Positions 28,743 through 39,900 of a stretch of DNA of 64,000 nt are shown piece by piece (positions within the stretch are counted from its first letter, which is position 1; each line of letters begins with the position of its first letter). This DNA is from Spirochaetia bacterium (GTDB lineage Bacteria > Spirochaetota > Leptospiria > Turneriellales > JAOUOS01). The notes beneath the pieces were generated by a model, which saw only the letters and a list, made by a program, of their open reading frames with translations, did no database searches and had not been told where the DNA came from. The stretch spans positions 1 through 64,000 of the forward strand of contig JAOUOS010000013.1 in NCBI GenBank assembly GCA_029880285.1, given 5' to 3'. The position numbers and the translations under genes were made by a program.

Positions 28743-29444
28743 TTAATTATCATATACTGATTCGCTCAAATCTTTTATAATTTGCGCATCATTTTTCTTA
28801 TCTTTATGAAGCTGAAAAGAAACTGTGTAATGATACATTTTGTCAAAATATACTAAGTTTTTTAAATAAAATTCTCTTTTAAATTTTATTCTCATTGGGT
28901 TACTTAAAGTATTTTCCATATTTCCTAGATTTACCTCATATGGTACCCCGCCGTTATTTACATTAATGATCTTAATATCTAAATTATCTTTAGTCGCAGG
29001 AGATTCATCAATAACAGTATTTTCTGTTTTGGTTCTTTTTTCATAATTTTCTTCCATTACAGAAGTAATTATCTTACTTAATTTATCCCCATTATAAAAA
29101 AGTTTCATTTTTTTCGTTTTCATGCCAATGATATTAGATTTATTATAAGATCTTCCAATGAAAGAATAACTCTCGATCTCAATATAATCTTTGCCTTTGG
29201 TAAATTTTGTTTGAGCCGGAGTATAATTTACCGGTACATCTTGAAGTTTATGATAGTTGCCTAATGATTTATTAACTTCTAAAATCTTATCATCTAGGTT
29301 ATCTTCTGTTTGATCTAATTCTAACGCTTTTTGAGATTCAGAATTTGTTCTCAAACTTTTCCAGTTTTTTGCTTCTTGCGGCCAAACTTGCGTAAAAGTT
29401 GCCGCTGCCGTAGTAAAGGCTAATATTTTAATTGTTGTTTTCAT
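28743..29444 (-). CDS. Secreted protein of unknown function, paralogue 1
   Basis: The 233-residue protein has a signal peptide (residues 1-22, ending near WPQ). The mature part is nearly colinear with the 231-residue product of 29750-30445, sharing YHKLQDVP, NYTPAQTKF, KGKDYIEIESYSF, KTKKMKLF, YEKRTKTENT and MENT.SNPMRI.FKR. The conserved strands suggest an exported beta-rich protein. No family is recognised. It has its own ribosome site (AAGGAAGGAC) and terminator, and shares an upstream motif with its paralogue. Divergence is spread along the length, so the duplication is not recent. Confidence 0.72.
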   Translation of the reverse strand: MKTTIKILAFTTAAATFTQVWPQEAKNWKSLRTNSESQKALELDQTEDNLDDKILEVNKSLGNYHKLQDVPVNYTPAQTKFTKGKDYIEIESYSFIGRSYNKSNIIGMKTKKMKLFYNGDKLSKIITSVMEENYEKRTKTENTVIDESPATKDNLDIKIINVNNGGVPYEVNLGNMENTLSNPMRIKFKREFYLKNLVYFDKMYHYTVSFQLHKDKKNDAQIIKDLSESVYDN

Positions 29445-29691: not shown

Positions 29692-29742
29692 AATATATAA
29701 CTAAAAAAGCCGGTTTAAAACCGGCTTTTTTAGTTATATATT
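29692..29742 (-). terminator. Perfect 51-bp palindrome, terminator of the second paralogue
   Basis: Arms 29692-29716 and 29718-29742 (25 bp each) are exact reverse complements around one base. The core AAAAAAGCCGG/CCGGCTTTTTT gives a strong hairpin with T-runs in both directions. It starts 8 nt after the stop at 29750. The stem is about twice as long as a usual intrinsic terminator. Confidence 0.85.
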
Positions 29743-29749
29743 GATAAGT

Positions 29750-30445
29750 TTACTTATCGAATATTGAGTCGGTTAGTTCTTTTATAATTTTCTCGTCATT
29801 ATTTTTATCTTTTTGAACTTGAAAAGATTCAGTATAGCGGAATAGTTTTTCAAAATACATTAAGTTTTTCAAGTAAAAGTTTCTTTTAAATTCTATTCTC
29901 ATAGGATTACTAACTGTATTTTCCATGTCTTTTACTATAAGATTGTATGGATTTCCGCTGTTTACCGTATTTGTTATTACAACATCAGATAAATCTTTTG
30001 TCAAAGGTGTTACATCAATGATAGTATTTTCTGTTTTTGTTCTTTTTTCATAGTCTTCTTGCATTACAGAAGTTTCTACCTTAGTTAAAGTATTTCCGTT
30101 AAAGAAAAGTTTCATCTTTTTTGTTGTCATTCCCACAATATTATTTTTGTTGTAAGATTTACCATTAAAAGAATAGCTTTCAATTTCAATGTAATCTTTA
30201 CCTTTATTAAACTTTGTTTGAGCCGGAGTATAATTTATTGGAACATCTTGAAGTTTGTGGTAGTTGCCAAGTGATTTATTCATTTCTAGAATTTTCTCAT
30301 CAAGATTTTCTTCAGTTTCATCTAACTCTATAGATTTTTGAGAGTTAGACTCCATTCTCAAATTTTTAGCTGAACTTTGCGCCCAAAGCTGGGTTAAAAA
30401 TAAACCAGCAATAACAAATGTTATTAATTTAATTGTTGTTTTCAT
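29750..30445 (-). CDS. Secreted protein of unknown function, paralogue 2
   Basis: The 231-residue protein has a signal peptide (1-22, ending AQS region) and is a diverged copy of the protein encoded at 28743-29444. Shared blocks include NKSLGNYHKLQDVP, NYTPAQTKFNKGKDYIEIES, KKMKLFFNG, YEKRTKTENT and SNPMRIEFKRNFYLKNL. The C-termini (IIKELTDSIFDK versus IIKDLSESVYDN) align as well. A strong ribosome site (AGGAGGAAG) precedes the ATG. It sits 58 nt after the AddB-like gene. Function unknown; periplasmic or surface location is inferred from the signal. Confidence 0.72.
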   Translation of the reverse strand: MKTTIKLITFVIAGLFLTQLWAQSSAKNLRMESNSQKSIELDETEENLDEKILEMNKSLGNYHKLQDVPINYTPAQTKFNKGKDYIEIESYSFNGKSYNKNNIVGMTTKKMKLFFNGNTLTKVETSVMQEDYEKRTKTENTIIDVTPLTKDLSDVVITNTVNSGNPYNLIVKDMENTVSNPMRIEFKRNFYLKNLMYFEKLFRYTESFQVQKDKNNDEKIIKELTDSIFDK

Positions 30446-30503: not shown

Positions 30504-33500
30504 TTATAAATATTTTTTATTATGAATTTTTAATAAATAATCGTGTAAATTTATATCATTTTTAATTCTTAGCATTGCTTTATCGAAAGGAATACCGTCA
30601 CAAATTAATTGAAATTCACAATTTCTACAGGGATAAATAAATTCTTCATTTGATTTATTTTTATTTCGATGCGGTACAGCAAAGAAGTAGTGTTTTTCCA
30701 GTATATTATTAATGATATTTAACTGGGGTTTTATTGTTTCTAAAAAATTTTCTCGCGTTATATTTTCAATAGTATATTTATTTGATATAATATTGTTTTC
30801 CAGCGTTTTCACAGAGTTGTTTTGAATATAAATATTAGTTCCCGAAAATATGGTTTTTCCTTTAATGGCTTCTTCTTTTATAAAAGTTTCAGCCGCTGCT
30901 TTTATGTATACAGCTAATTGAATATCATTTAAAGTAGTTAAAAAATTTAGATTTGCGGCTGGTTTAATCTTACTTGTTTTATAATCTATAATTATATATG
31001 TATTTGAGCTTTCATTAAAATCTATTCTATCAATTGAACCTTTAAAATAAAATGGACCTAGTTTAATGTTTTCAAATTTATATTCAGTAGCTAGAGGTAT
31101 AAATTCATACAGCGGATGTTTTTCAAGCTTAACTAAATTGAAAAAGCTTAAAAAGTATTTCTTAAAAAGGTTATGCTGATTTTCAATGTCTTTTTTTATA
31201 AGCAGATTGTTTTTATTTATATTATTACTGTTAAAATTAATTTTTAATACAGTATTTTTAAATACATCTTCTAATAAGCTTATTATTTGATTTTTTGAAT
31301 GAGAAACAGCAAAAGTATGATAAGATTTATTCTTATTAATTTTCATAATTTCATTAATTAAATACTGTGAGGCCATATGAAAAAGACTGCCTTTTTCTTT
31401 CGCGGGCAAAGATAATGATAAATTATTAAAATTTAAGTTTTCAATTTTCAATAACCTATTATACCAGAATTTTTGGGGACAATTTTGCAATATATCAAAA
31501 GCTGATGGCGATAAGTTATTAATTAGCTTTTTTGTATCTAATGTATTAGAAATAAATCCAAAATATTTTTCAATGTATTTAATGTTTTCATTTGTTTTTA
31601 TTTGATAAAAATTTTTGTATAAATTATAATTAATTTCTTTATTTATTTCATCCTCTGTTGACATATTATTTTCAATTAAGAAATTTATAGAAAAATTGGA
31701 CTTTATATCATTTTTAAGTTGAAGCGGTAAATCCCATGAAGCCTTAATATCAGGTAGTTTTTCATATAAAGGTAAAAGTGAAATACTTTCAGATTTATTA
31801 TCCATATTAAAATATTTTTTTAATATAAAAAAAACTACCCAATCAGGAAAACTATTATCTTCTAATGAAAAGGTGAAAAAAACCGCTTTAGGAATTTTTT
31901 CTATATATTGTGAAAGTATTTTTTGTTCTTCTTTTCTGTTTATTTTAGAAAAATTTATTAAATTTTTATTTTCTAAGTCAATTAATCCGGTTTCAATTTG
32001 TTTGTATTTATATAAGAAATTTAAATCGCATAAAAATAAAAATTTAATATTTGAATGAATACCATCATTGATATGTCTTATTACAATGCCCCATTTATCA
32101 TGTTCGTTTTCGTTGATTTTATTTTTTATTTTTAATTTTTCTAGCTCATCCCGCATAATAGAAAAAAAATCATGTTTGCTGATTTTTTCATGTATTGTGT
32201 CTAAGAACGCAAGATTTTGAAATATTTTATTTAATGAAATAATTGTTTCATTATAATTATTAATTAGTTCTGCCGTAAGATGTTTTTCTCGTTTTGTATA
32301 TTTTAATATGATTTTATTAAATAAATTAATATAAGCGGATGGTTTGTTTTCATTAGGTAGTTTTTCAAATTCGCTGGCTAATAACTCTATTGATAAAGAA
32401 AAATAGTAAAACTCAAGATGTGTATTTTGTTTGTTCTTTAAATATTGAATTAGTGATGGTAAAGTTATATCAGAAGTATTTTTATTTTTTAAAAATACTT
32501 CTTCCCATAAGAAAGGGTCAAGATATTTTTTATCTACAGTTATATTCTTTTTATAAAGATATTTTTCTAAATAATTAAAATTAAAAAAAGGTGATTTTAT
32601 AAGATAAAGAATATTTTCTATATTTATTTTATTTTTTAATTTTGTGTTTATACAAAATATCGTTATGAGAATATTTAAGAAAAAGCTGTATCCAAAAGTT
32701 TTTGTAGAGATATTATTTTTTAAATCATAGGGAATATTTTTTTTATTCAAATGATAAGTTATAAAATCTAAAATATTGTCATTGGCATAACTAATTTGAA
32801 TATCGTACAATGAAACAGAATTGTTAATTAAATAGGCTATAGTTTCAGAAATTAAATGCGCTTCGGCGTAAAAAGTTTGAGATTTCCATATTTTTATTTC
32901 TTTTTTTTTCTCTTTATTAAATTTTACTAAGTTAAGATTATCTTCTATGCTGCAGGCAGAGCCTATATGTTCGTTTAATTCGAATATAAATTTATTAACT
33001 TTATATTTTTCAAGAGAACTAATAAATTTGTTTAAGTTATTTTCTGATGTTAAATTATTATTTAATATAATATTCCAGCTAGGCTCGCATATAGAGTTTA
33101 AAAACTCTAATTTTTTCTTTTCAGTATATCCCATTTCTAAAGGTAATATCCATAATACATCATGTTTCTTGTTTTCTTCAAAATTTATTTTATAATTTAA
33201 ATTGTACGCTTTAGTTAAAAATAAGGGCAGATGCAAATAATTTAATTTTTGTATTTCTTCGTTTATAATCTCAAATAATTTTAAAAGTGTTTGTGTTTTT
33301 TTTGAATAAGTATTTTCATTTATTTTTAAAAAAGGATTTAACCAGTTAAAATTGGTCCAAAGAGAGTGTATTTCATTTTTGAAACCGCTTAACTCAAAAA
33401 TATCTTTAAATATATTTAAAGATATTTTTAAGTTTTTTTTTTCTAAAATATTATTTATAATTATTTTTTCAAGAAAACTATTATTTAAAACTTTTTCTTG

Positions 33501-37673: not shown

Positions 37674-37874
37674 CTAATGGTTTAATATTTCATTTAAGAT
37701 TTTTTCAACTTCGGGTAAACAGGTACCGCATCCTGTTGAAGCTTTGGTATCTTCAATTAGGGCTTTAATTGTTCTATTCCCATTTTTAATGGAATTTTCT
37801 ATATCTTGCCTAGAGACATCTTTACACAAACATATTTTTGGCGGTCGCGTGTATATTATTCCATTTCCATCCAT
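37674..37874 (-). CDS. Bfd-like [2Fe-2S] ferredoxin
   Basis: The 66-residue protein carries four cysteines as CxC (15, 17) and CxxC (49, 52) in CLCKDVS and TGCGTCLPE, the pattern of bacterioferritin-associated ferredoxin/NifU-like Fer2_BFD domains. Bfd reduces ferritin iron for release. Gene position supports an iron role: it is divergent from feoB with 100 nt between, and a 35-bp palindrome lies in that gap. No Shine-Dalgarno is seen ahead of the ATG. Confidence 0.82.
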   Translation of the reverse strand: MDGNGIIYTRPPKICLCKDVSRQDIENSIKNGNRTIKALIEDTKASTGCGTCLPEVEKILNEILNH

Positions 37875-37939
37875 ATATAATACATTACTACAATAATTAC
37901 TATTTTCAAAAAATAATAGACGGGATGTCGATTAATTTA

Positions 37940-37974
37940 TTATTGTTATTGAGAACGGTTCTCAATAACAATAA
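37940..37974. promoter_or_regulatory. Perfect 35-bp palindrome, probable Fur-family operator of feoB
   Basis: Arms 37940-37956 and 37958-37974 are exact reverse complements around G37957. The centre TGAGAAC-G-GTTCTCA has the 7-1-7 architecture of a Fur box (TGATAAT-N-ATTATCA). The right arm ends at the base before the feoB start codon, so no ribosome site is present there. Bound regulator, or the hairpin in the RNA, would cover the initiation region. Iron control is inferred. Confidence 0.72.
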
Positions 37975-39900
37975 ATGGAAAAAGAAAATAAAATAGTTTA
38001 TTTGGTTGGTAACGCAAATGTAGGTAAATCGGTAATATTTTCAGCGTTAACAAGAAAATATGCCGCTGTTTCAAATTATCCCGGTACAACGGTAGAAATT
38101 ACCGAAGGGGAGTTGTTTAATGGCAGTTTGCAAAAAACAAACGTAAAAATTATTGATACCCCGGGTATAAACTCTTTGGCTCCTTTAAGTGAAGATGAAA
38201 GAGTAACCAGAGATATATTATTAAAACATGAAATAGAAAGAAAAGAAAAGCCAGAAGTAATTCTTGTTATTGACGCAAAAAATTTAAGAAGAGGCCTTGT
38301 AATAGCCTGTCAGCTTATTTATGCAGAAATCCCATTTATAATAGTTTTAAATATGATGGATGAAGCTGTGGCCTCGGGAATAAAAATTGATATAAAAGAA
38401 CTTGAAAGACGAACAAAAGTACCAGTTATACCTGCTGTTGCCGTGCAAAAAGAAGGAATTTCTAAAATCATTAATTATGCTGCTAAACCAATTATCGCCT
38501 CAAAATATAATTTAATCTCTCATGCCGAAGTTATTGATTATTCAGAATTTATTAAAAAAAAGGGTATATCATTCTTAGCCGGTATTTCTTTGGCAGAAAC
38601 TGATAAATCTGTGCTTGGTTTTATGGAAGATAAAAAAATAAAAGATGTTGAGAATTTTTTATTAAAAAAAAATGGATTCATAAAAGAAATACATAAGTTA
38701 TGGTTTGAAAATGTAAATGAAATCATGAGTGGAGTATTTCAGAAAATAAATCCATCCGCGAATCCTAAATTTACTAAATTAGGTTTATATACCATAAGAC
38801 CCCTGTCGGGCTTATTTATACTATTAGGCGTTTTATATCTGGTTTATAAATTTGTGGGAATTTTGGGAGCAGGCTATGCTGTTGATTTTTTAGAAAAAAT
38901 TATTTTCATTAAATATGTAAACCCTTTTTTTATTAACGTTTTTCATTTTTTATCTTTGCCTGAAATTATAAACGAAGCTTTTATAGGTGAATTTGGCATG
39001 CTTACCATGGGATTAACTTATGCAGTAGCCATTATACTTCCTATTGTTTTTACATTCTTTATTGCCTTTAGCTTTCTTGAAGATTCGGGGTATTTTCCGC
39101 GGATGGGAGTTCTTTTAAATTCTGTTTTTTCATTTATGGGTTTAAACGGCAAAGCGGTACTTCCCATGGTATTGGGTTTAGGGTGCGATACAATGGCCAC
39201 TATGACAACGAGAATATTAAATAGTCATAAAGAGAGAGTAATAGTAACACTTCTTCTTGCTCTTGGGGTACCCTGTTCAGCTCAGCTGGGGGTATTAATG
39301 GCTTTGGGCGCCGGACTGCCTGAAATATATATGATAGCATGGGTGTTTATTATTATTTTTACGCTTATCTTTGTAGGTTACTTATCGTCAAAAATTGTAA
39401 AGGGCAAACCGGCTCTATTTTTAATGGAACTGCCTCCTCTTAGAATTCCCCAGTTTTCAAATATACTGAAAAAAACTTATATGCGTTCAAAATGGTATTT
39501 AAAAGAAGCCGCCCCTTTATTTATATTAGGCTCTTTTATTCTTTTTTTATTTAATAAATTTTTAATTTTAAATTTATTTAATAATTTATTAAAGCCATTA
39601 ACCGTTTATGGTCTGGGACTGCCTGCTGAGTCTGCTTCTAGTTTTGTAATGGGGTTTTTAAGGCGAGATTTCGGAGCAGCAGGCTTCTTAAAACTTCATG
39701 CCGAAGGAAAAATGGATAATCTTCAAACTCTTGTTTCTTTGGTTGTAATTACGCTTTTTATTCCCTGTGTCGCTAATTTCTTAATGATTATTAAAGAAAG
39801 AGGGCTATTTACCGCGATGGGGATGTTTTTATTTGTAATACCTTTTTCTTTTTTAGTGGGTACCGTGTTAAATCATACGCTAAGATTTATGTTTTATTAG
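37975..39900 (+). CDS. feoB: Ferrous iron transporter FeoB
   Basis: The 641-residue protein has the GTPase domain (G1 GNANVGKS at 12-19, G3 DTPG, G4 NMMD) followed by about eight membrane helices. The two Gate motifs are visible, including GLGCDTMATMTTR and LGVPCSAQLGVLMALG. It imports Fe(II) across the inner membrane. It is shorter than the E. coli protein (773) and no feoA lies next to it. The start at 37975 abuts the palindrome described above. Confidence 0.95.
   Translation: MEKENKIVYLVGNANVGKSVIFSALTRKYAAVSNYPGTTVEITEGELFNGSLQKTNVKIIDTPGINSLAPLSEDERVTRDILLKHEIERKEKPEVILVIDAKNLRRGLVIACQLIYAEIPFIIVLNMMDEAVASGIKIDIKELERRTKVPVIPAVAVQKEGISKIINYAAKPIIASKYNLISHAEVIDYSEFIKKKGISFLAGISLAETDKSVLGFMEDKKIKDVENFLLKKNGFIKEIHKLWFENVNEIMSGVFQKINPSANPKFTKLGLYTIRPLSGLFILLGVLYLVYKFVGILGAGYAVDFLEKIIFIKYVNPFFINVFHFLSLPEIINEAFIGEFGMLTMGLTYAVAIILPIVFTFFIAFSFLEDSGYFPRMGVLLNSVFSFMGLNGKAVLPMVLGLGCDTMATMTTRILNSHKERVIVTLLLALGVPCSAQLGVLMALGAGLPEIYMIAWVFIIIFTLIFVGYLSSKIVKGKPALFLMELPPLRIPQFSNILKKTYMRSKWYLKEAAPLFILGSFILFLFNKFLILNLFNNLLKPLTVYGLGLPAESASSFVMGFLRRDFGAAGFLKLHAEGKMDNLQTLVSLVVITLFIPCVANFLMIIKERGLFTAMGMFLFVIPFSFLVGTVLNHTLRFMFY

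Follow-up and report, generated by a model that had tools for sequence, protein, structure and literature searches.

Two kinds of described system are the closest counterparts of the locus analysed here. Fur boxes have a reference consensus (PMC3788343), and template switching, known as quasipalindrome correction or template-switch mutation in E. coli, yeast and RNA genes, can generate a perfect hairpin in a single event (PMC8794818). Among related FeoB genes, those of Geobacteraceae feature Fur-like dyads (e.g., TTGAAAATGATTATCAA) that are located roughly 80–120 bp upstream, away from the start codon, and have no extended arms.

In contrast, the feoB gene described in this report is preceded by a dyad that is perfect over 35 bp and ends exactly at the start codon. 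As in Fur boxes of the 7-1-7 form, a TGAGAAY-N-RTTCTCA dyad would overlie what is probably the promoter of a gene for iron uptake, in a genome encoding one Fur homologue, and its core recurs at iron genes in the phylum. Unlike known boxes, the dyad has C/G instead of T/A at the inner base and outer arms whose sequence is not conserved. Template-switch products are similar in being perfect inverted repeats with species-specific arms, and imperfect congener copies accompany one of the sites described below, at a fur gene. The difference is that template switching would here have affected the operator of a transcription factor, next to a start codon, and is read from sequences rather than observed in real time.

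A perfect palindrome at the feoB start codon

The analysed window is a 64,000-nucleotide stretch of a Spirochaetia genome, referred to as G000. In the window, feoB (37975–39900, plus strand) encodes a 641-residue ferrous iron transporter that matches the Pfam FeoB_N and FeoB_C domains and the NCBIfam model TIGR00437 (381 bits against a cut-off of 315.65). The codon preceding the ATG at 37975 is an in-frame TAA (37972–37974); the start therefore cannot be located further upstream in frame and is fixed at 37975. The next in-frame start codon downstream falls in the P-loop. Full-length FeoB shares 41–48% identity with deltaproteobacterial and other-phylum FeoB proteins, versus about 25–40%, often in partial matches, with most other spirochaete FeoB proteins searched. 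FeoB may have been acquired horizontally in the family of G000 and in two further genomes of the same order (G004 and G006).

The sequence immediately upstream of feoB, TTATTGTTATTGAGAAC-G-GTTCTCAATAACAATAA (37940–37974), is a palindrome in which an inverted-repeat search identified two 17-nt arms (37940–37956 and 37958–37974) that are 100% complementary and separated by a single nucleotide. The original prediction of a perfect 35-bp palindrome ending at the feoB start codon is thus borne out. A 41-bp perfect palindrome, TGCCTCCATATATTGAGAATCATTCTCAATATATGGAGGCA, is found at the feoB start of G001, a Spirochaetia MAG that belongs to the same GTDB family but to another genus and whose FeoB is about 65% identical; the contig carrying it matches Spirochaetia MAG 8_1_Oct_SF_Bin25. 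Here, the ATG lies within the right arm.

Perfect palindromes with arms of at least 12 bp and a spacer of up to 5 were absent from 476 kb of order-1 Markov sequence matched in length and composition, which excludes chance as the source of the feoB palindrome under this model. In real sequence long palindromes do occur. Eleven with arms of at least 15 bp were counted in the 876 kb of G000 that were sampled (12.6 per Mb), and the rate is about 13 per Mb both in G000 and in the 773 kb sampled in G001. Because these elements mostly lie 3′ of genes as terminators, and because the G001 hairpin is flagged as terminator-like, the feoB palindrome might be taken for an intrinsic terminator, or for a palindrome that arose by chance and has nothing to do with Fur. 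This can hardly be so, as the G000 palindrome is not followed by a T tract, is located at a gene start and contains a Fur core that is conserved in G001 and in the distant G074. Within the sequence sampled from G000 and G001, the feoB palindromes are the only long ones in contact with a start codon.

The Fur-box core and its recurrence at iron genes

The G000 and G001 palindromes have in common only a 17-bp core, TTGAGAACGGTTCTCAA in G000 (37949–37965; TGAGAAC-G-GTTCTCA in the 7-1-7 notation) and TTGAGAATCATTCTCAA, a textbook Fur box, in G001. Both belong to a 7-1-7 dyad (19-bp class) related to GATAATGATAATCATTATC, the corresponding sequences being TGAGAACGGTTCTCA in G000 and TGAGAATCATTCTCA in G001. 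The G000 core differs from the TGAGAATNATTCTCA form by one base per half-site.

The exact 17-bp core TTGAGAAYNRTTCTCAA is present in 12 of 393 Spirochaetota genomes, versus a single genome for the reversed control pattern. It precedes feoB in G000, G001 and G074, a TonB-dependent receptor gene in G037, an imelysin gene in G019, a Fur-family gene in G296 and an imelysin homologue in G218, the latter assigned by similarity because its ORF is incomplete. Some exact-core sites, a minority, fall within coding sequence; these probably occur by chance. The shorter 15-bp core is found before bfd in G007, before a TonB receptor gene in G005 and before fur genes. A literature search on the exact motif string retrieved no paper.

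G000 encodes one FUR-family protein (G000:C84:32388-32744), whose best NCBIfam matches are Fur models, with scores below their cut-offs; no match to a DtxR-type regulator was obtained in the genome. The presence of the core at the same place in G001, its association with iron genes across the phylum, the single Fur homologue and the lack of a DtxR match make a strong case that the palindrome is very probably the Fur operator of feoB, as judged from these comparisons, and agree with the proposal that its centre is a diverged Fur box. These data provide a concrete Fur-box consensus, and a proposed promoter layout described below, for a group in which Fur-family sites are poorly described.

The original prediction called for the palindrome to be sought elsewhere in the genome and in relatives. 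The core occurs once only in G000, with no second copy within one mismatch. It is shared with feoB of G001 and G074 but is absent, as is the palindrome, from feoB of G004 and G006, whose FeoB proteins are 56–57% identical. At feoB of the scanned relatives from other phyla, neither a palindrome nor an extended dyad was found, and just the ordinary upstream Fur boxes of Geobacteraceae were detected.

An ORF encoding a 66-residue bacterioferritin-associated ferredoxin-like protein (37674–37874, minus strand; Pfam Fer2_BFD) diverges from feoB, and its start lies 65 bp from the palindrome end. In G007 and G016 a Fur core lies immediately upstream of bfd, and control of the G000 bfd by the site at feoB is possible. 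The suggestion that the palindrome jointly controls the two genes is, however, not supported; bfd is missing from the feoB locus of G001.

Predicted promoter layout and the hairpin alternative

In the gene orientation, a TTGACA or TAGACA hexamer begins precisely 32 bp upstream of the 17-bp core at G001 feoB, at the imelysin genes of G218 and G019, and in G002; at G074 feoB the distance is 33 bp. The G000 counterpart is the putative −35 hexamer TAGACG (37917–37922, plus strand), also 32 bp before the core. By itself it is a weak match to the consensus, and its assignment derives from the equidistant hexamers found elsewhere and from in-register conservation of the sequence upstream in G000 and G001. 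With an 18-bp spacer, the candidate −10 hexamer is TATTGT in the left arm (37941–37946, plus strand), a weak candidate that matches 8 of 12 consensus bases and falls below the promoter-scan threshold. Neither of the G000 hexamers is strong, and neither is flagged in a scan for the consensus.

Given a normal spacer, the conserved −35 distance would mean that the −10 hexamer lies within the left arm and that transcription begins inside the core; the Fur box therefore probably covers both. Under this layout, and as known Fur biology leads one to expect, RNA polymerase would be blocked by Fe(II)-Fur in iron-replete cells. Under iron limitation, transcription would start within the box, and a short leader devoid of a Shine-Dalgarno motif would run directly into the AUG. 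A second layout is suggested by the spirochaete family f49 (G309, G390, G264, G367, G378 and G389; L331-L337), in which the Fur core lies about 10–20 bp after a TTGAC and is followed within a few bases by the start of a small Fur-family gene, placing the box between −35 and −10.

That the palindrome leaves no room for a ribosome-binding site is true as stated. This is nothing unusual, as no more than 42 of the 237 long ORFs sampled in this genome carry an SD-like motif; a control position gives 8 of 237. Since most genes have no such motif, its absence was dropped as an argument.

Initiation had been predicted to be blocked by a bound regulator or by an RNA hairpin. Repression by the bound regulator is the likely mechanism. 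According to the second alternative, the whole palindrome (35 bp in G000, 41 bp in G001) would be selected as a feoB-leader hairpin hiding the start codon, a translational switch added to Fur control. Several features are consistent with this possibility. For instance, the arms of G000 and G001 differ but remain perfectly paired, as a conserved stem predicts, and the predicted stems (−17.0 and −29.8 kcal/mol) have the AUG next to or inside them. Moreover, a conserved ATAAT just upstream can be read as a −10 element, which would place the entire hairpin in the mRNA. By contrast, the −35 spacing common to unrelated Fur targets puts the start inside the core, and the mRNA would therefore carry the right arm only and form no long hairpin. 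With the AUG buried in the perfect 19-bp stem of G001 (−29.8 kcal/mol), no expression of the gene would be expected. A search of Rfam for described RNA families, such as RNA thermometers or cis-regulatory hairpins, gave no match at 37940–37974 at E ≤ 1. The hairpin is absent from the Feo genes of farther relatives, and the same extension occurs at other Fur boxes in which the ATG is more distant, as in G218. The hairpin explanation is accordingly quite improbable.

Extension of the palindromic arms

Palindromic extension of at least 6 bp was observed at 7 of the 69 sites carrying the exact 15-bp core, versus an expectation of 0.02, or of 0.28 at a generous match rate of 0.4. The seven extended sites are located at the fur gene of G227 (a perfect palindrome of 49 bp), at feoB of G001, G000 and G074, at the imelysin gene of G218, at an FMN-binding gene of G013 and at a TonB receptor gene of G037. 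Extension is 2 bp or less at 54 of the 69 sites. The extended palindromes end 0 nt (G000), 1 nt (G227) and 1 nt (G013) before the ATG, and the G001 palindrome includes it.

The outer arms might represent extra Fur half-sites, with two or three dimers bound side by side and palindromy selected for binding. Fur multimers are known to extend beyond the box (PMC3788343), TAACAA is found outside the core in both G000 and G019, and the hexamers flanking the core in G218 (TGATAT) and G037 (TGATTT) are similar to half-sites, so that selection for Fur binding may account for some of the extension. As a general explanation this is unlikely, since the outer arms TGCCTCC of G001 and GCGGAATTC of G227 are unlike any Fur half-site, the arms reach 9–17 bp past a 15- to 17-bp core, and most core sites feature the short extensions reported above. 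Alternatively, the symmetry of long spirochaete Fur operators may be maintained whatever the arm sequence, a hairpin or cruciform, in RNA or DNA, providing a second layer of control at the start codon; we regard this as rather doubtful.

We favour, as the probable explanation, an ordinary Fur operator located over the −10 region and transcription start, the arms of which were made perfect by template switching up to the start codon. Because the outer arms of G001 are unrelated in sequence to those of G000 yet are equally perfect, the 9 bp at either end of the G000 palindrome do not constitute a conserved protein site. The Fur box (17-bp centre, 7-1-7) would rather be a good hairpin seed that provokes template switching during replication, by which one flank is rewritten as the complement of the other. 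Such rewriting would be limited by the constrained start codon, or would copy it, and the palindrome would therefore end exactly at the ATG. That the arms were perfected by homogenisation of the inverted repeat reaching the start codon is moderately likely.

At the fur gene of G227, the palindrome can be compared with that of three congeners (G210, G162 and G135), whose fur genes are about 90% identical and which have the same box but imperfect arms. The right arm reads TTTTAGCGAATTCCGCG in G227, TTTTGAGAATTGCGCG in G210, TTTTGGGAATTGCGCG in G162 and TTTTGAGAAATGCGCG in G135. Compared with G210, this arm of G227 has two substitutions and one inserted nucleotide, and every one of these differences brings it closer to the complement of the G227 left arm. 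In the sequence comparison, these differences fit the signature of template switching, and the pattern relative to the three congeners looks like block rewriting of one arm. The rooting of the tree is weak (support 0.151), and an older perfect palindrome may therefore have decayed instead. A DNA search found no further congeners of the site. At feoB, the family of G000 is represented by two genomes only, and either arm may have been the one that was rewritten. The FMN-binding genes of G010 and G013 were considered as a second case of conversion. A 31-bp palindrome is present in G013 only, and the pair was rejected because the proteins are just 57% identical, too distant for the direction of change to be inferred.

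If the template-switching explanation is true, regulatory dyads can turn into perfect palindromes without every base having to be selected, and operators would be sites at which this replication process carries promoter sequence into 5′ leaders as far as the start codon. By the same token, paired changes within a stem are not necessarily a sign of RNA structure.

Other long palindromes were also noted. In the window, a 51-bp perfect palindrome with 25-bp arms and with A and T tracts (29692–29742) is located between the paralogous ORFs 28743–29444 and 29750–30445, both on the minus strand; it resembles a bidirectional terminator, and perfect pairing extends 11 bp beyond the A/T tracts. A perfect 34-bp palindrome (33396–33429) lies within a coding region of 1070 residues. 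A 38-bp perfect palindrome, CCCGTGAAGGTGACGATCCGGATCGTCACCTTCACGGG, is identical at L233:292-329 in G000 and L258:5429-5466 in G001, in unrelated surroundings, and a variant is found at L239:3786-3819; this element is perhaps mobile or functional.
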